A DNA stretch of 36,649 bases from an uncultured Pelagibacteraceae bacterium (GTDB lineage Bacteria; Pseudomonadota; Alphaproteobacteria; Pelagibacterales; AG-422-B15): positions 1 through 36,649 of the forward strand of contig CACKXV010000007.1 in assembly GCA_902604225.1 (NCBI GenBank), given 5' to 3'. A program made the position numbers and the translations under genes. Positions 27,950-36,649 of this stretch are shown here, piece by piece. Numbering within the stretch: the first letter of the stretch is position 1; each line of letters opens with the position of its first letter. The notes under the pieces are model-generated. The model made no database searches. It saw only the letters and a list, made by a program, of their open reading frames with translations, and was not told the DNA's origin.

Positions 27950-29287
27950 ATGACATTAATCATTTCAATTTTAAAAAAATTTCTTGTAATCACAATATTC
28001 GCTTCATTTACACTTATAAATGCTAGTGCACAGACATTAACAAATATGGTTAATCAAATTCTTGATAGCCATGAGGATATTGTAAATGCAAAAAAAGAAT
28101 TAGAAGAGGCAGATAGAGATATAACAGATGCTCTTCTAGCATATGCTCCGGATTTATCAGTAAAATATGAGGCAGGAAGGAATGATAAATATGAGGCAAG
28201 TTCAAATTCACAGTTAGATTTCAAAACGTGGGATTGGACTTGGAAACAAAAGATAATGGATTCAGGTGCTACTCTTAATGGCATTAGAAATAAACAATTG
28301 GAGTCTGAAAAGTCTCAGTTAGATTTTATCACAGCTAGAAATGATTTATTAATTGAGGCCGCAGATGCATACCTTGGACTAATAAAAGCTGGAGAAAAGC
28401 TCGAGGCTTCAGTAGCAGCTGAAGAAAATACTAGAGCTACTTCTGGACAGGAAGAAATCAGAGTTCAAGTTGGATCTGGATTGGCATCTGATGTATTGAA
28501 AGCAAAAAGACAATTAGCGAGCGCTCAAAAAACTGTAATTACAGATGAGAAAAGTTTTAAATCTGCGGTATTCACTTTTGAGAAACTTTTTAAAACTGAT
28601 GCAGTTGAAGTAAGTAGTCTTGTCAAACCTCGATTAAGTCCAGCGGCATTAGCAATGGTTCCAAATTCTATGGATGCAACTGTAGAGATGGCGCTTGCTA
28701 ATAACAGAGATTTATTGAAATCAAAAATGGATGTTGATATTGCAAGAAATGATTTAAATGTCGCACTTGCTGGATTTGGTCCATCTGTAGATGGAGAATT
28801 AAAATACTCTGATAAAAAAGATGCGTCTCATACAGGTGGCAGTCATCATGAAGAGCAATTAAAGGTAACTGTTGAGTTTCCTATCTCAGGTCTTTATATG
28901 GAATTGCCAGGTTACTTGAATGATCGTTCTGCTTTAGACAGAGCAATCAATGATCTAGCTGTTAAAGAGAGAGATACTATAAAAAAAGCGAAGGATGCTT
29001 GGATTGAATATTCAAATGCTAGAACGATGCTATCTTACAGTGAAAATGAAGCAACGATTGCTCAAGAACTTTTGACGATTGCTCAAAAAGAAAGAGCTGC
29101 TGATCAGACTGATGCTGCGGCTGTTCTGTCAGCTGAAGAGACACTCGAGAGCTCATTAAAGGATTTGTCTGATGACAGCATGTCTCTTGTAACTTCTGTT
29201 TATGAAATCCTTGATGTAATTAATTTACTAGAACCGTCAATGATAGAAAATACAAAAGTTGAGGGAACATTCAACTCATCATCATAA
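27950..29287 (+). CDS. TolC-family outer-membrane efflux/secretion channel protein
   Basis: Signal peptide; LLIEAADAYLGLIKAGEKLEASVAAEENT, VGSGLASDVLKAKRQLASAQ (TolC-type helical motif), second internal repeat from about NRDLLKSKMDVDIARNDLNVALAGFGPSV. Confidence 0.82.
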   Translation: MTLIISILKKFLVITIFASFTLINASAQTLTNMVNQILDSHEDIVNAKKELEEADRDITDALLAYAPDLSVKYEAGRNDKYEASSNSQLDFKTWDWTWKQKIMDSGATLNGIRNKQLESEKSQLDFITARNDLLIEAADAYLGLIKAGEKLEASVAAEENTRATSGQEEIRVQVGSGLASDVLKAKRQLASAQKTVITDEKSFKSAVFTFEKLFKTDAVEVSSLVKPRLSPAALAMVPNSMDATVEMALANNRDLLKSKMDVDIARNDLNVALAGFGPSVDGELKYSDKKDASHTGGSHHEEQLKVTVEFPISGLYMELPGYLNDRSALDRAINDLAVKERDTIKKAKDAWIEYSNARTMLSYSENEATIAQELLTIAQKERAADQTDAAAVLSAEETLESSLKDLSDDSMSLVTSVYEILDVINLLEPSMIENTKVEGTFNSSS

Positions 29288-29347: not shown

Positions 29348-32300
29348 ATGCCAGTAACTCCAGCAGAAGCTCAAGAGTTTTTTCAGGAGGTTGCGTCCGC
29401 AGCATCACCGGAAGAACAGCAGGCATTAATACAAGAATACGCAGCTAATAATGACAATCCAGACGAAATGTTGGCCGCTGTGGTTCAAGCGAACCCTGCA
29501 GCTGCTCAACAAATTGCATCTGCAACTGCTCAGGCAATACCTGAACAAGCAGCAGAGATAGCTGGAGCAATTGCTGCAGCTGCACCACAAACTGCAAATG
29601 CTACTGCTGCTGCAATGGCATCAGCTGCACCTGATATTGCACAAGATGTTGCATCAGATGTTGTGAATAACGCTCCTGCCGCTGCAGGTGCTGTCGCTGC
29701 ATCCCTTACACAAATTAATCCTGAGGGCGCTGCTGAAATGGCAGCTGCAATTGCTGAGTCAACACCCGCTGCAGCAGGCGCTGTTGCTGCTGCCGTTGCA
29801 CAAGCTGCTCCTGAACATGCCGTTGAAGCCGCTGCCTCAATGGCTGCTGCAAATCCTGCAGCTGCAAGTGGAGCTGCAAGCGCTGTAGCTGCCGCTGATC
29901 CTGAAGCTGCTTCTCAAGTCGCAACTGCAATGGCACAAGCCGCTCCTGAAGCTGCTGCTGCTGTAGCTGCTGGCGTTGCATCTGGCGTCGCTCAAGCTGC
30001 AATTGCAGAAGTAAATCAAGAAACAGCACAAGCTAATGCTGAAATTCAAGCTGATGCTCAAGGCCAAATAGGCGATGCACAAGCTGATTTTGCCGAAGCC
30101 ACAGGCGCTGGATCTGAGTCTGCTCTTGCTGACGCACAAGGTGAGATTGCCGACGTTCAATCTGCTGCTCAAGACGCTTTGATTGAAAGCAATCAAGCAG
30201 GACAAGAAGCTGCTCTAGCTGCCTCACAAGAAGCTACTGCTGAAATTATATCTGAAATGATTGCAATGAATCCTGATGCTGCTGCAGAAATTATAGCTGG
30301 AACTGCAGCATCAAATCCTGAGGCTGCTGCAGAAATTGTTCAAGAAATGATGGAGTCAAATCCAGAAGGTGCTGTTGAAATGTGTGCAGATATTGCTGAG
30401 GCAAACCCTGCCGCCGCTGCTCTTGCAACAGAAGCAATTATAGAGTCCAATCCTGAACTTGCTATTGAAGCTACTGCTGCTATGGCTGAAGTTGCACCTG
30501 CTGCAGCTGGCGCTGCTGCAGAAGTAATGGCTGAATTAGCTCCTGAACAAGCAGGTGAAGCTGCGATTGCAATGCAAGATGCTGCGCCTGAAGCTGCTGC
30601 TGCAATTGCTGGCGGGGTTGCTCAAGGCAATCCTGAAGTCGCTGCTGAGGTAGCTAACGAAATGGCTGCCGCTGATCCTGAAGCAGCTGCTGATATTGCA
30701 ACAGGTGTCGCCGTTGCTGCACAAGCCAATGCTCAGGCTGAAGTTGCTGAGGCACAAGCTGAAGCCCAAGCTCAAGTAGCTGAGGTTCAAGAAGAGCTTG
30801 CTGACGCCGTCAGTGAAGCACAAGCAGATTTAAATTCTGATGATCCAAATATTGTTGCCGATGCTCAAGCCACTCTAGCAGACGCACAAGCACAAATTGC
30901 AGATGCTCAAGCTGCTGGACAAGAAGCTATTGCAGAAGTCCAAGGTGCTGCAGCAGAGACCGCACAAGATTTAGCTGGTGATATCGCTGGCGCGATGATG
31001 GAAGCTAATCCTGAAGCAGTTGCTGACATTGCAGAACAAGTAGCTGAGTCTGCACCAGGTACTGCTGCTGGCATAATGAATGCTGTAGCTGAGGTTGCTC
31101 CAGAACAAGCTGTTGAAGCTGCCGCAACAATGGCTGATGCAAACCCTGCCGCTGCAGGTGCTGCCGTGGAAGCTGTCACTGAAGCTTTACCTGAATTAGC
31201 GACTGAAGCTGCTGTGGCTATGGCGGAAGCTGCTCCAGAAGCTGCAGCAAGTATTGCTGCAAGTGTCGCTCAAGCAAATCCAGATGCTGCAACTGAAATT
31301 GCATCTGAAATGGCAAACGTTGCTGCAAACAATGAAAACTTTTCTCAAGATGAAGCTCTAGCTATGCAAACTGCAATTGCAACTCAAGTTGCAAGTGCTG
31401 CACCTGAAGCTGCCGCAGAAGTTGCGAGCGCAATGGTAGAGTCAATGACAACTGGTATTGAAGGTAATGCCAGTGAAGGTGCTTTAGCTGAAGCCGCTGC
31501 TGCGATGACAGCAAATGTTGCATCTGCTGCAACCCAAGCTGATCCTGAAGGAGCCGCTGACTTAGCAAGTACCATGATGGAACAAATGGCTGAGATACCA
31601 GGTATTGAGCCTGAGGCATTGGCCGAGACTGGTGCGGGCATGACAGCAAATATGGCTGCAACTGCCGTCGCTGCTGATCCAGAGGGAGCCGCTGATTTAG
31701 CTGGTGCCATGATGGATGTTATGGCAGATATTCCAAACGTTCCTGAAGATTTTGACATGGCTGGTCAAATGGCTGAGATGACAACTAATATTGCGACCCA
31801 AGCTACAGCAGCAGCTCCCGAGCAAGCTGCTGAATTAGCTGGAGCAATGATGGAGCAAATGGCAGATATTCCTGGCGCTCCTGATGATTTTGATGCTGCC
31901 GCGCAAATGGCAGAAATGACAGCAAATATAGCAACTGCAGTTGCAGCTGCGGATCCTGAAGCTGCAGGTGAAATTGCTGGTCAAATGATGGAACAAATGG
32001 CTGAGATCCCTGGCGTTTCTTTAGAAGACATGGCTGAGTTTAACAATGATATGGCTGCACAGGTTGCGCAAGTTGCACCTGAAACAGCAGGGGATGTATT
32101 GGGAGCAATGGCTGCTGCTGATCCTGGTGCTGCAGCTGAACTAGCAACTGCAATGGCAGAAGCTAATCCTGCTGCCGCAGGTGAGGCGATGGCAGGACTT
32201 GCTGAAGCTGCGCCAGAACTTATTGCAGATGTTGCTGGAGCAGTTGCTGAAGCTGCACCAGAATTATCTGGAGTCCTAGCTGCCGGAGTTGCATCTGGTA

Positions 32301-35300
32301 ACCCAGAAGTTGCAGCTGAGGCCGCTCTTGCTTTATCAGAAGTTAATCCAGACGCTGCCGCACAAATCGCTGCAAGCACTGCTGCTGCTAATCCAGAATT
32401 CGCTGCAGAAGTTGCAGCTGCAATGGCTGAAGCCAATCCTGATGCCGTAGCCGATATGGCTGCCGCTGTTGCACAATTTGCACCAGACGCTGCTGCATCT
32501 GTTGCATCTGAACTTATTTCTAATGATCCTGAAGCTGCAGGTGAACTCGCAGCTGCAATGGCCGAAGCAAACCCAGCTGCTGCTGGAGATATTGCTGGCG
32601 CGTTGATGGAGTCTGCTCCTGAACAAGCTGTGGCTGCCGCTACAGCAATGGCTGAAGCTAGTCCTGCTGCCGCTGCATCTGCAGCACAAGGTATGGCTGC
32701 TGTTGTTGCCGATGCAGGTTTCTTTGATGGTGGAAGTGCTGACATAGCAACTCAAGCTGCTGCTGCTATGGCAGAAGTCGCACCAGAAGTTGCTTCCTCA
32801 GTTGCCGCTGGTATCGCTAGTGGTAATCCTGAAATGGCTGCCGAGGTTGCAGTCGCAATGGCAGAAGCCGCTCCAGATGCTGCTTCCGCAATCGCAGGTG
32901 GAATGGCTAGAAGCGCACCTGATGCCGTTGGCGATGTTATTGGGGCAATGGCTGATGCTAACCCAGAAGCTTTGAATGATATTGCATCAGGTGTTGCCCA
33001 ATTTGCACCAGCTGCTGCTGGTGATGCAATGGCTGCTGTTGTAGAAGCAAATCCAGAAGCTGCAGTTGCTGCCGCAACTGCAATGGCTGCTGCTAATCCC
33101 GCTGCTGCTCAAGATATTACTGCCGCTATAATAGAAGTTGACCCCGGCGCTGCCGCAGATACTGCCGCTGCATTAGCAGAAGCAGTCCCTCAAGCCGCTG
33201 GAATGATTGCTGCAGGTGTTGCAGAAGCTGCACCCGAGGCTGCTGCGGATGTTGCTGGTTCGCTTGCTGAAGCTAACCCAGCTGCCGCTGCTCTAATTGC
33301 CACTTCTGTTGCACAAGCTGCACCAGAACTCGCAGGTGATATTGCTGCTGATATGGCCGCCGTTAATCCTGAAGCTATGGCAGGAGCTGTTGCAAATATT
33401 GCAGCAACTGTTGCTGCTGCGAACCCAGATTTAGCTGCAGACATTGCAGGAGATATGGCTGCTATTAATCCGAATGCCGCTGGCGCAATTGCAAATGTTG
33501 TTTCAGCTCAAGCTCCAGAAGCCGCAGCCGAAGCTGCAGCCGCATTAATTCAAGCTAATCCAGATGCCGCTGGCGCAATAGCTGCTGGAGTTGCTGCTCA
33601 AGCACCTGAAGCCGCCGCTGAAGCTGCTACGGCATTAGTTGAAGCTAATCCAGATGCCGCTGCCGCAATTGTTGGTGGAATGGCAAATGCAAATCCAGAC
33701 GCTGTTGCTGATGTTGCAGGGGCTATGATGGAAGCTGCTCCTGAAGCTGCCGCTGCTATGGCTGGTGCTGTTGCTCAAGCTGCGCCTGAAATGGCTGGAG
33801 ATATGGCAATAGCAATTGCTGAGAGTAATCCTGAACTTGCTGTTGAAGCTGCTGCTGCAATGGCAGAAGCAAACCCTGCTGCTGCACAAATGGCCGCAGA
33901 AGGTATGATGGAAGCTGCACCTGAGCTTGCTGCGGACGCTGCAAATGCAATGGCTGCTGCTGCCCCTGAAGCTGCTGCAGATATTGCTGGTGGAATGGCA
34001 ATGGCTAACCCTGATGCTGCTGCAGAAATTGCTGGCGCGATGGTCGAAGCTAATCCCGAAATGGCTGGAGACATTGCTACTGGAGTTGCGATGAGTGCTC
34101 CTGCCGCAATGGAAGATGTGGCTAGTACTTTAATTGAAGCTAACCCTGAAGCGACAGCAACTATGGCTGCTGTTCTTGCTGAAACTGCACCGGGCGCTGC
34201 TGATAACATGATGAATACTGTTGCAGATATTAATCCTGAAGCTGCACTTGCTGTTGCTGGTGCAATGGCTGAAGCTAATCCAATGGCTGCTGAGGGAACC
34301 GCTGGCGCAATAGCAGATACGTTGCCTGATCTTGCTGCTGATGCAGCAGGTGCTATGGCCGCTGCTAATCCTGACGTAGCAGGTGATATTGCTGCAGGTA
34401 TGGCTGCTGCTAATCCAGAAATTGCTGGCGACGTCGCTGGCGCTATGATGGATGCGGCGCCTGAAGCTGCACAGGGAATTGCACAAGGAATTGCCTCCGC
34501 AGCCCCTGACCAAGCTGCAGATGTTGCTGGCGCAATGGCAGAAGCTAACCCAGAATTTGCTGGTGATATTGCTGGCGGAATGGCTGCAGGAGACCCTGGT
34601 CAAGCTGCAGATATTGCAACTGCAATGGCTGCTGCAAACCCTGACGCTGCAGGTGAAATTGCTGGTGGCGTTGCTGAATTTGCTCCTGCTGCTGCAGGAG
34701 ATGTTGCTGGCGCTATGGTTGAAGCCAATCCTGAAGCTGCGATAGAGATGGCAACGGCAATGGCTGAAGCTAACCCACTTGCTGCTGGCGCTGCAATGGG
34801 GGCAATGGCTGAAGCAGCACCTGAGATCGCTACTGATGCTGCAGCTGCAATGGCTGAAGCTAATCCTGATGCAGCTGGTTTTGCTGCTCAAAGTATGGCT
34901 GACGCTGTTCCAGAATTAGCCGCTGAAGCTGCAACGGCAATGATGGAAGTTGCACCTGACTCTGCTGGTGCAATTGCAGGAGGAGTTGCAAGAGGAGATG
35001 TCGATATTGCCGCTCAAGTTGCAACTGATATGGTTAACGCTAATCCAGAATTAATGGGAGATATTGCAGGAGGTGTTGCTCAAATGGCTCCTGGTGCTGC
35101 TGGTGACGTAGCTGGCGCAATGGTTGAAGCAAATCCAGATGGCGCAGCCGATATGGCCGCTGCTGTTGCTGAAAATGTCCCTGGAGCAGCTGGTGCTGTT
35201 GCAGGCGCTATAGCAGAAGCTGACCCAGCACTTGCTGCTGAAGCTGCTGGTGCGATGATGGAGGCAAACCCTGCTGCTGCTTCTGCAGCTGCTGCTGGTA

Positions 35301-36649
35301 TGGCAAATGCCGCACCTGAAGTTGCGGGTGATGTTGCTGGTGCCATGATGGAAATTGCAATGGCACCTGACTTTGCTGCTGACTTTGTTGAAAATGCTAC
35401 TACTGCGAATCCAGACATGAGTCCTGAACAACTTGATGCGCTAGTAGAGAATTTCGCAGGAAATGCGGTTGGCTCAATTGCTCAAGGTATGGCAGTAGGT
35501 GATCCTGATATAGCTGGTGATATGGCAGGGATTATGATGGATGCTGCTATGGCCAATCCTGAAATGGCTGAAAATTTTGTAGGTGAAATTGCAGGCGGTA
35601 TGGCTGCAGGCGCGCCTCAACAAGCAGGAGATATTGCTGTTGGCATGATGGAAGCAAATCCTGAGATGGCTGGAGATATTGCTGGCGGAGCTGCCGCAGG
35701 CAACCCACAAGTTGCAGCAGGAGTTGCAATGGAAATGGTTGGATCAGATCCGAGTTTAGTTAACGATATTGCTGGTGGGGTTGCTGAAATGGCACCTGCC
35801 ACTGCAGGTGGTGTTGTTGGCGCAATGGTCGCTGATAATCCTGATATTGCAGCTGGAGTAATTGATGCAGCAATGACAGCAAATCCAGCCGCCGCTGGTG
35901 CCGTTGCTGGTGGAGTTTTAGCTGCAGTTCCTGATGGGGAAGCTGCTATTGGAATTATGCAAGAAGTTGCAGCTGCTAATCCAGAAGCTGCTGGTGCCTT
36001 TGCAGGAGGTATAGCGCAAGCTAACCCTGTTGCTGCCGGTGAAATGGCTGGTGGTTTGGCTGCAATTGATCCTGGACTAGCAGGAGATATGGCAGGCGCC
36101 ATGGCAACTGCTAACCCTGCTGCTGCAACGATGGTTGCTGCAGGAGTAGCTGAATTTGCTCCAGATGCTGTGGGAGCAATTGCTGGTTCTATGGCTGAAG
36201 CTAATCCAGCTATTGCAGGACAGGTTGCTGCTGGTATGGCTCAGTTTGATCCTGGTGCCGCAGCACAGTTTGCTGGAGATTTAGTTGCTGCTAATCCCGA
36301 TATGGCTGCGAATATTGCAAGTGGAATGGCACAATTAGCTACGCAAGGTGGTATGGCAGATTTAGCTGGTGAGTTTATGGGTCAAATGGCGGCAGCTAAT
36401 CCTGAAATGGCTGGCATGATGGCAGCTGGGATGACTCAAATGATGGGTAATCAAGGCGCGGCATTCATGGCTGATATGGGCGATGTAATGGGGGCCGATA
36501 TGGCAGCTCAATTACAGGCTGATATGCAATCACAAATGGCAGATATGCAAGCAATGATGCAAAGTGCAATGCAGGGCGGAGACATGTTTATGGGGCCAAT
36601 GATGACGGGTGACATGATGGGACCTGCTGACTTTGGTGGAATGATGGAT
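29348..36649 (+). CDS. giant Ala-rich 15-residue-repeat protein, 3' truncated by window edge (2434 codons, no stop seen)
   Basis: ATG 29348 preceded by gaaagga RBS; frame open to 36649 by manual translation (MPVTPAEAQEFFQEVASAASPEEQQALIQEYAANNDNPDEMLAAVVQANPAAAQQIASATAQAIPEQAAEIAGAIAAAAP...). Absent from the ORF track because it lacks a stop in the window. Confidence 0.95.
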   Translation, partial: MPVTPAEAQEFFQEVASAASPEEQQALIQEYAANNDNPDEMLAAVVQANPAAAQQIASATAQAIPEQAAEIAGAIAAAAPQTANATAAAMASAAPDIAQDVASDVVNNAPAAAGAVAASLTQINPEGAAEMAAAIAESTPAAAGAVAAAVAQAAPEHAVEAAASMAAANPAAASGAASAVAAADPEAASQVATAMAQAAPEAAAAVAAGVASGVAQAAIAEVNQETAQANAEIQADAQGQIGDAQADFAEATGAGSESALADAQGEIADVQSAAQDALIESNQAGQEAALAASQEATAEIISEMIAMNPDAAAEIIAGTAASNPEAAAEIVQEMMESNPEGAVEMCADIAEANPAAAALATEAIIESNPELAIEATAAMAEVAPAAAGAAAEVMAELAPEQAGEAAIAMQDAAPEAAAAIAGGVAQGNPEVAAEVANEMAAADPEAAADIATGVAVAAQANAQAEVAEAQAEAQAQVAEVQEELADAVSEAQADLNSDDPNIVADAQATLADAQAQIADAQAAGQEAIAEVQGAAAETAQDLAGDIAGAMMEANPEAVADIAEQVAESAPGTAAGIMNAVAEVAPEQAVEAAATMADANPAAAGAAVEAVTEALPELATEAAVAMAEAAPEAAASIAASVAQANPDAATEIASEMANVAANNENFSQDEALAMQTAIATQVASAAPEAAAEVASAMVESMTTGIEGNASEGALAEAAAAMTANVASAATQADPEGAADLASTMMEQMAEIPGIEPEALAETGAGMTANMAATAVAADPEGAADLAGAMMDVMADIPNVPEDFDMAGQMAEMTTNIATQATAAAPEQAAELAGAMMEQMADIPGAPDDFDAAAQMAEMTANIATAVAAADPEAAGEIAGQMMEQMAEIPGVSLEDMAEFNNDMAAQVAQVAPETAGDVLGAMAAADPGAAAELATAMAEANPAAAGEAMAGLAEAAPELIADVAGAVAEAAPELSGVLAAGVASGNPEVAAEAALALSEVNPDAAAQIAASTAAANPEFAAEVAAAMAEANPDAVADMAAAVAQFAPDAAASVASELISNDPEAAGELAAAMAEANPAAAGDIAGALMESAPEQAVAAATAMAEASPAAAASAAQGMAAVVADAGFFDGGSADIATQAAAAMAEVAPEVASSVAAGIASGNPEMAAEVAVAMAEAAPDAASAIAGGMARSAPDAVGDVIGAMADANPEALNDIASGVAQFAPAAAGDAMAAVVEANPEAAVAAATAMAAANPAAAQDITAAIIEVDPGAAADTAAALAEAVPQAAGMIAAGVAEAAPEAAADVAGSLAEANPAAAALIATSVAQAAPELAGDIAADMAAVNPEAMAGAVANIAATVAAANPDLAADIAGDMAAINPNAAGAIANVVSAQAPEAAAEAAAALIQANPDAAGAIAAGVAAQAPEAAAEAATALVEANPDAAAAIVGGMANANPDAVADVAGAMMEAAPEAAAAMAGAVAQAAPEMAGDMAIAIAESNPELAVEAAAAMAEANPAAAQMAAEGMMEAAPELAADAANAMAAAAPEAAADIAGGMAMANPDAAAEIAGAMVEANPEMAGDIATGVAMSAPAAMEDVASTLIEANPEATATMAAVLAETAPGAADNMMNTVADINPEAALAVAGAMAEANPMAAEGTAGAIADTLPDLAADAAGAMAAANPDVAGDIAAGMAAANPEIAGDVAGAMMDAAPEAAQGIAQGIASAAPDQAADVAGAMAEANPEFAGDIAGGMAAGDPGQAADIATAMAAANPDAAGEIAGGVAEFAPAAAGDVAGAMVEANPEAAIEMATAMAEANPLAAGAAMGAMAEAAPEIATDAAAAMAEANPDAAGFAAQSMADAVPELAAEAATAMMEVAPDSAGAIAGGVARGDVDIAAQVATDMVNANPELMGDIAGGVAQMAPGAAGDVAGAMVEANPDGAADMAAAVAENVPGAAGAVAGAIAEADPALAAEAAGAMMEANPAAASAAAAGMANAAPEVAGDVAGAMMEIAMAPDFAADFVENATTANPDMSPEQLDALVENFAGNAVGSIAQGMAVGDPDIAGDMAGIMMDAAMANPEMAENFVGEIAGGMAAGAPQQAGDIAVGMMEANPEMAGDIAGGAAAGNPQVAAGVAMEMVGSDPSLVNDIAGGVAEMAPATAGGVVGAMVADNPDIAAGVIDAAMTANPAAAGAVAGGVLAAVPDGEAAIGIMQEVAAANPEAAGAFAGGIAQANPVAAGEMAGGLAAIDPGLAGDMAGAMATANPAAATMVAAGVAEFAPDAVGAIAGSMAEANPAIAGQVAAGMAQFDPGAAAQFAGDLVAANPDMAANIASGMAQLATQGGMADLAGEFMGQMAAANPEMAGMMAAGMTQMMGNQGAAFMADMGDVMGADMAAQLQADMQSQMADMQAMMQSAMQGGDMFMGPMMTGDMMGPADFGGMMD
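29976..30268 (+). other. Gln/Ala-rich coiled-coil-like interruption 1 within the giant CDS
   Basis: VASGVAQAAIAEVNQETAQANAEIQADAQGQIGDAQADFAEATGAGSESALADAQGEIADVQSAAQDALIESNQAGQEAALAASQEATAEIISEMIAM; the Pro-marked 15-aa register is lost. Confidence 0.7.
30719..31006 (+). other. Gln/Ala-rich coiled-coil-like interruption 2 within the giant CDS
   Basis: AQANAQAEVAEAQAEAQAQVAEVQEELADAVSEAQADLNSDDPNIVADAQATLADAQAQIADAQAAGQEAIAEVQGAAAETAQDL; similar to interruption 1. Confidence 0.7.
31541..32074 (+). repeat. block of 41-46-aa super-repeats within the giant CDS
   Basis: Unit starts at 31541, 31676, 31814, 31952 (spacings 45, 46, 46 aa, then 41 aa); each has DPEGAADLAGAMMDxMA(D/E)IPxxx...(Q)MAEMTxNIATxVAA-like content. 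Confidence 0.75.

Follow-up and report, generated by a model that had tools for sequence, protein, structure and literature searches.

A giant reading frame at the edge of a contig from an uncultured Pelagibacteraceae bacterium raises the question of what a protein built largely from a 15-residue repeat folds into, where it goes and what it does. The window, by which we mean the whole 36,649-nucleotide stretch of DNA analyzed, is one contig (C7) of a 0.8 Mb genome that is 56% complete. The giant gene occupies positions 29348-36649 of the forward strand and encodes 2434 residues in a single frame, reaching the end of the contig without a stop codon (Table 1).

Table 1. Coordinates, within the window, of the giant gene, its parts and the gene upstream of it
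Feature	Position	Strand	Basis
TolC-family channel in the outer membrane (445 aa), forming the outer part of the type I secretion system	27950..29287	+	Pfam OEP 7.8e-35
Giant gene, 5′ part, 2434 codons, open at contig end	29348..36649	+	ORF, orthologue comparison
Non-repeat N terminus, residues 1-48, MPVTPAEAQEFFQEV..., well conserved	29348..29491	+	alignment
Helix block 1, 11 exact 15-aa units, residues 49-213	29492..29986	+	unit runs
Spacer 1, Pro-free, rich in Ala, Gln and Glu, resembling a coiled coil by eye	29987..30268	+	sequence
Helix block 2, 10 units, residues 308-457	30269..30718	+	unit runs
Spacer 2, Ala/Gln/Glu-rich, residues 458-553	30719..31006	+	sequence
Helix block 3, 7 units, residues 554-658	31007..31321	+	unit runs
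Irregular section, 18/25 Pro spacing, Met-rich motifs, residues 659-909	31322..32074	+	Pro spacing list
Helix block 4, 14 units, residues 910-1119	32075..32704	+	unit runs
Helix block 5, 14 units, residues 1145-1354	32780..33409	+	unit runs
Helix block 6, 35 units, longest exact run, residues 1359-1883	33422..34996	+	unit runs
Helix block 7, 7 units, residues 1899-2003	35042..35356	+	unit runs
Helix block 8, 8 units, residues 2089-2208	35612..35971	+	unit runs
Helix block 9, 8 units, residues 2211-2330	35978..36337	+	unit runs
Transition into Met/Gly/Pro/Asp tract; contig stops at tract start	36338..36649	+	orthologue comparison

The repeat is evident from proline spacing. Exactly 15 residues separate the prolines in 106 of the 138 Pro-Pro gaps, whereas shuffled sequences contained a mean of 7.8 such pairs and a maximum of 17 (1000 shuffles). 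The autocorrelation of proline is 0.75 at lag 15, 0.69 at lag 30 and 0.66 at lag 45, compared to a shuffled maximum of 0.08, and that of Kyte-Doolittle hydrophobicity peaks at lags 30 (0.35) and 15 (0.32). The hydrophobicity spectrum of the reading frame contains helical periods of 3.7-3.8. These analyses bear out an original prediction, made from the DNA letters, that prolines would recur at exactly 15 residues with matching peaks at 15 and 30. They also recover its consensus unit, as the computed profile reads Asn, Ala or Asp at position 1, Pro at 2, Glu, Ala or Asp at 3, Ala at 5 (89%), Asp or Glu at 7, Ile, Val or Ala at 8, Ala at 9 (83%), Met or Val at 12 (72%), Ala at 13 (72%) and Glu at 14. 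Counting units only in runs of at least four, we obtained 114, so the predicted array of more than 100 units is present; however, it is not one continuous run but nine separate blocks of exact 15-residue spacing, each with 7-35 units. The blocks are interrupted by Ala/Gln/Glu-rich spacers (residues 214-307 and 458-553), an irregular section (about 659-909) where prolines are spaced by 18 or 25 residues, and short linkers.

Within runs, units two apart are more alike than in shuffled order (30.55 versus 27.2 ± 0.74, a score reached in 0 of 2000 shuffles), while adjacent units are less alike (24.8 versus 27.15). Because the lag-2 score lies above and the lag-1 score below shuffled order, the evolutionary repeat is a 30-residue pair of helices. 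The two-helix pairing that had been proposed from the single unit is thus present in the sequence, and it recurs in the structural models described below.

The composition of the 2434 residues is extreme. Alanine makes up 37%, and 348 Asp and Glu residues are accompanied by two Arg and no Lys, making the protein very acidic; there is one Tyr, one His, one Cys and no Trp. With so few Lys and Arg residues, the body would be nearly uncut by trypsin. Side chains contain 0.09 nitrogens per residue, compared to 0.31 in neighboring proteins, and thus carry a low nitrogen cost. The GC content of the gene is also raised (about 0.50 versus 0.33). Since its GC3 (0.227) is similar to that of neighboring genes, the shift is a by-product of alanine codons, and we rejected the idea of a GC island or foreign gene. 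The scarcity of Lys and Arg, the abundance of alanine and the low side-chain nitrogen are what might be expected if the body were foldless, low-complexity sequence maintained through drift in composition, slippage or economy of nitrogen.

To model the fold, we used AlphaFold2 on the first 20 units of block 6 (300 residues), with an alignment of 17 rows of orthologous and paralogous slices. The model contains 20 helices, with a mean pLDDT of 85.8 and a pTM of 0.72. A second RTX protein type of 1675 residues, which carries a shorter array of the 15-residue repeat, is encoded by another genome (G022, L020:4464-9491); we found no orthologue of it among the other genomes searched. This paralogue is far less Ala-rich and shares 25-33% identity with the other rows of its alignment, and its model is a similar solenoid with 22 helices (pLDDT 86.3, pTM 0.79). 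Both alignments were shallow, and since the second (11 rows) drew rows from the first protein, the models depend in part on each other. Both models agree with the original prediction that each 15 residues form one helix with proline in its first turn, and neither contains the disorder or β structure that would speak against it. AlphaFold2 can return confident yet unrealistic solenoids for perfect repeats, the reported artefact being β-solenoids (PMC11795689). The repeats examined here, unlike those, are imperfect. On the basis of these models, the body is predicted to be an α-solenoid, in which stacked helical hairpins form an open superhelix.

In Foldseek searches of the PDB, matches were limited to weak alignments, interrupted by gaps, with TPR, ARM and HEAT-like repeats and with designed helical repeats (best E value 1.1e-3). 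Among the matches listed, which included the TPR region of OGT, Armc8, importins and designed repeats, the query-normalized TM-score did not exceed 0.43. No Pfam or NCBIfam model covered the 15-residue unit in the proteins tested, the Pfam scan of the giant protein matched no TPR, HEAT, ARM or other catalogued helical-repeat profile, and querying PDB sequences with a profile of the unit gave nothing meaningful (best E value 0.28). Since the structural matches are weak and generic and the family scans empty, we place the repeat as a new family within the α-solenoid class, not as a proven new fold. The solenoid part of the earlier proposal of a new α-solenoid or superhelical fold thus stands, while the suggested new fold finds no support in the Foldseek matches, which belong to the known solenoid class. 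The 30-residue hairpin sits just below the range of 31-42 residues cited there for helical repeats.

One catalogued family required separate scrutiny. The XPC-binding model (PF09280) reached a summed Pfam score of 55.5 bits against a cut-off of 26.4, with no stretch at E ≤ 1. XPC-binding domains share with the giant protein short helices that open with Asn-Pro at a similar spacing, but they occur in a eukaryotic RAD23 context that is absent here. As no individual stretch is significant, we rejected homology; the resemblance likely reflects convergence on NP-capped helices.

Orthologues of the giant gene occur in the same genus, for example in the Pelagibacteraceae single-cell genomes AG-337-G06 and AG-333-C14, and none was found among the sampled genomes from other genera of the order. 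Between species, the body is 90-98% identical to that in the window, with dN/dS values of 0.03-0.09. For the same species pairs, identity is 91-97% for IlvD, 74-95% for TolC and 70-92% for ValS. By this measure, the body is as conserved as IlvD and mostly more conserved than TolC or ValS. For most pairs, pS is also lower than in neighboring genes (0.26-0.52 versus 0.37-0.79), which could reflect strong codon selection and high expression.

The arrangement of the repeats is equally constant. Each exact run is equally long in the three complete orthologues, and no unit has been gained or lost. Insertions and deletions are confined to spacers, linkers and the irregular section (residues 245-262, 485-516, 701, 1119-1132 and an insertion near 792); spacer 1 is the site of an 18-residue deletion in some species. 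Slices within one giant protein are only about half alike, in contrast to the 90-98% identity between species. This pattern, together with the low dN/dS, the significant 30-residue superperiod and the confident helical models, largely refutes the low-complexity explanation, which we now consider very unlikely. Slippage was rejected because run boundaries are identical across species. We also rejected a phage origin, as scans of viral contigs revealed no relative and PHROGs gave no match.

How the gene ends became clear from its orthologues and from a second contig of the window genome. The original prediction missed that the gene lies in an operon for type I secretion and extends past the body into a Met-rich tract and a C terminus resembling those of type I substrates. 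The three complete orthologues (L011, L012 and L013) encode 3058, 2958 and 3176 residues. Their helical bodies are followed by a tract of 406-511 residues, in which Met accounts for 33-41% and is accompanied by Gly, Pro and Asp (MMGPDPMMMGMDPMM...), and then by a C terminus of 154-299 residues. In L013, this C terminus contains RTX repeats (PF00353, 1.9e-17); the non-RTX C terminus of L012 matched no Pfam family. The two halves of the window genome's giant gene sit on separate contigs, C7 and C16 (G000:C16, locus L105). Contig C16 begins inside the Met tract and encodes RTX repeats (PF00353, 5.5e-10), followed by an ABC exporter and HlyD. RTX nonapeptides of the form GGxGxDxUx are present in the 3′ end of the window genome's gene and in L013, and absent from eight orthologous loci. 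In contrast to the conserved body, the Met tract differs among orthologues in both length and sequence, and the C termini are of different types.

Many 5′ contigs end, and many 3′ contigs begin, inside the Met tract. Since so many breaks fall there, they appear to stem from assembly. If genomes with either end (TolC or ABC) are counted, 28 of 43 in the genus carry part of the locus, and the exporter is present in eight of the ten that are at least 90% complete. We therefore rejected the idea that the gene is missing from part of the genus, as the apparent figure of 15 of about 40 mostly reflects assembly breaks. The order ValS-IlvD-TolC-giant also occurs on a contig filed under a gammaproteobacterial MAG (L047, NAT245), which is probably misbinned Pelagibacterales DNA.

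The genes on either side point to type I secretion. Wherever a relative has both genes on one contig, TolC immediately precedes the giant gene; in the window, it also matches TIGR01844 (type_I_sec_TolC, 1.6e-36), under the curated cut-off of that model. The order is TolC-giant-ABC-HlyD in all three complete orthologues, and ABC and HlyD genes also follow the giant gene in L021, as they do on contig C16. The ABC exporter, of about 550 residues, matches type I exporter models strongly (2.9e-101), though under their curated cut-offs, while HlyD exceeds the TIGR01843 cut-off of 208.65 bits in both the window genome (306.6) and L012 (319). In L012 (17609-18568) and L111 (4160-4960), the type I genes are followed by a stand-alone inverse-autotransporter barrel (IAT_beta, about 1e-29) with no passenger.

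C-terminus type tracks exporter type. All eight loci whose ABC protein is nearer to that of L080 encode a substrate C terminus without RTX, and all 15 loci with an ABC protein nearer to that of L088 have RTX-like nonapeptides, giving agreement in 23 of 23 loci, a count uncorrected for shared ancestry; in L101 and L102, the ABC protein is almost equally distant from the two references. Across this divide, the bodies are about 91-92% identical (RTX, window and L013; non-RTX, L011 and L014). Judged from these comparisons, the C terminus and exporter change together while the body stays the same, and this covariation is the best evidence that the giant protein is the exporter's substrate. Operon context and the C-terminus/exporter pairing thus both suggest that it is exported by its own type I system.

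We propose that the giant gene encodes an acidic α-solenoid rod that is exported to the cell surface by its own type I system, and assign this reading a probability of about 70%. The solenoid is predicted from the models; export, folding outside the cell, surface location and role are what we infer. The protein would be a dedicated substrate, an acidic exoprotein of about 3000 residues, recognized by the neighboring ABC exporter through a signal at its C terminus, either RTX or non-RTX. The chain would pass unfolded, C terminus first, via HlyD and TolC. Outside the cell, the body would fold into stacked 30-residue α-hairpins that form an extended rod with coiled-coil-like hinges, and the Met/Gly/Pro/Asp tract would be a flexible linker between rod and C terminus. 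TPR superhelices rise about 0.9-1 nm per hairpin; at a similar rise, the exact units alone would span roughly 50-60 nm. The role would most likely be structural, as a long rod or coat projecting from or covering the cell, with adhesion, spacing, and shielding from phages and grazers as candidate uses. Pfam recognized no anchor or LapA-type retention module in the protein, and the N terminus matched no Pfam or NCBIfam model, including the LapA-type retention module with its LapG cleavage site. Since no such module was recognized, the protein may be released rather than surface bound.

Another explanation is that the protein is a giant RTX-type adhesin, in which the helical body is a spacer and the Met tract and variable C terminus bind algal mucilage, particles or cells. 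Giant type I substrates with repetitive stalks, such as SiiE and MpAFP, are typically adhesins. A conserved body with a varying Met tract and C terminus would fit this role, as would the barrel gene after the operon in L012 and L111. However, Pfam and NCBIfam scans detected no ligand-binding or Ig-like domain, and a near-invariant body of 2400 residues is odd for a mere spacer. Since the body is strongly conserved, and stalks usually vary in repeat number while the exact arrays here do not, a passive spacer is disfavored. We regard an adhesin of this type as possible but rather unlikely.

The functional end could instead be the Met-rich tract, acting as an extracellular sink for Cu(I) or oxidants that the rod keeps off the cell. 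Thioether clusters bind Cu(I) and are easily oxidized, and the tract is present in every complete orthologue and in the majority of 3′ fragments. Yet the recovered parts of the fragments at L087, L095, L097 and L099 are rich in Gly and Pro and contain few Met, implying that Met may be replaceable. By eye, there is no His/Cys pattern typical of copper proteins, and the annotated operon genes include no recognized copper gene. We consider such a sink improbable.

Returning to the proposed surface rod, we asked where else its repeat occurs. Profile searches detected the 15-residue unit in unrelated Proteobacteria, in three of 385 genomes of the class (L054-L056, L058) and seven of 399 genomes of the phylum (L113-L119). 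The tested proteins show 15-residue spacing beyond shuffles, and nearly all share the hydrophobic positions 8 and 12; L055 has one rival lag, and L117 is weaker. Five are small proteins (185-402 residues) built of the unit and adjoining polysaccharide-related genes (L113, L114, L115, L116 and L056). Their neighbors include Poly_export/SLBB (L115, L116 and L056), a BBP2_2 barrel (L113 and L115), a sugar epimerase (L114) and Wzz. Possibly, these proteins are a recurrent unnamed component of exopolysaccharide loci; a neighborhood survey of one family found them in two of five genomes, too few to generalize, and a plasmid search for a small repeat protein found none. The unit also forms C-terminal arrays in FecR-domain proteins (APESAAAIASSVTTA; L054:862-2979 and L055:1060-2943) and C-terminal tails on MFS transporters (L118:1-2037, confirmed by Pfam, and L119:1378-3387, by eye). 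Shared ancestry could account for this distribution, as could independent convergence on short helices rich in Ala. Tentatively, and with less than even confidence, we suggest that Proteobacteria share the 15/30-residue repeat as a building block of the envelope and that, in one genus of the SAR11 order, it has grown into a giant, near-invariant surface rod with a Met-rich linker and type I export.

A protein conserved like a central metabolic enzyme stands out in streamlined ocean bacteria, which are rarely credited with large surface proteins, and a gene of about 3000 codons is costly for a genome of roughly 1.3 Mb. Standard tryptic marine metaproteomics would detect next to nothing of the body, which is almost devoid of trypsin sites, so such a surface structure could have been overlooked. 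Under the more tentative reading of a shared envelope repeat, the rod would be a main surface structure of an ocean bacterium, missed by tryptic proteomics. For protein design, the repeat provides a short helical module.

Among known systems, the giant protein resembles the giant type I exoproteins and RTX adhesins (SiiE, MpAFP and the RtxA/LapA type) in its thousands of repeat residues, in the RTX-type C terminus of many members and in the adjacent ABC, HlyD and TolC genes. It differs from them in having all-α 15-residue repeats instead of Ig-like β domains and a Met-rich tract; no LapA retention module is recognized, and some C termini lack RTX. To our knowledge, the giant type I exoproteins described so far have bodies of β-sandwich repeats. 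With TPR, ARM, HEAT and designed helical repeats it shares stacked helical hairpins, but its hairpin is 30 residues long, with two near-equal short helices that each start with proline. The nearest parallel is Giant1-3 of Apilactobacillus kunkeei, giant extracellular, mostly alanine-rich proteins predicted to form elongated rods of α-helical repeats (PMC12863079). These have parallel helices, repeats of 103-366 residues, an N-terminal β-solenoid and no transport genes near their cluster (PMC12863079), and thus differ in repeat length, architecture and secretion. Giant type I exoproteins and α-solenoids are each already known; the databases and literature searched contained neither the two combined nor this repeat family, nor did they contain such a Met-rich tract.
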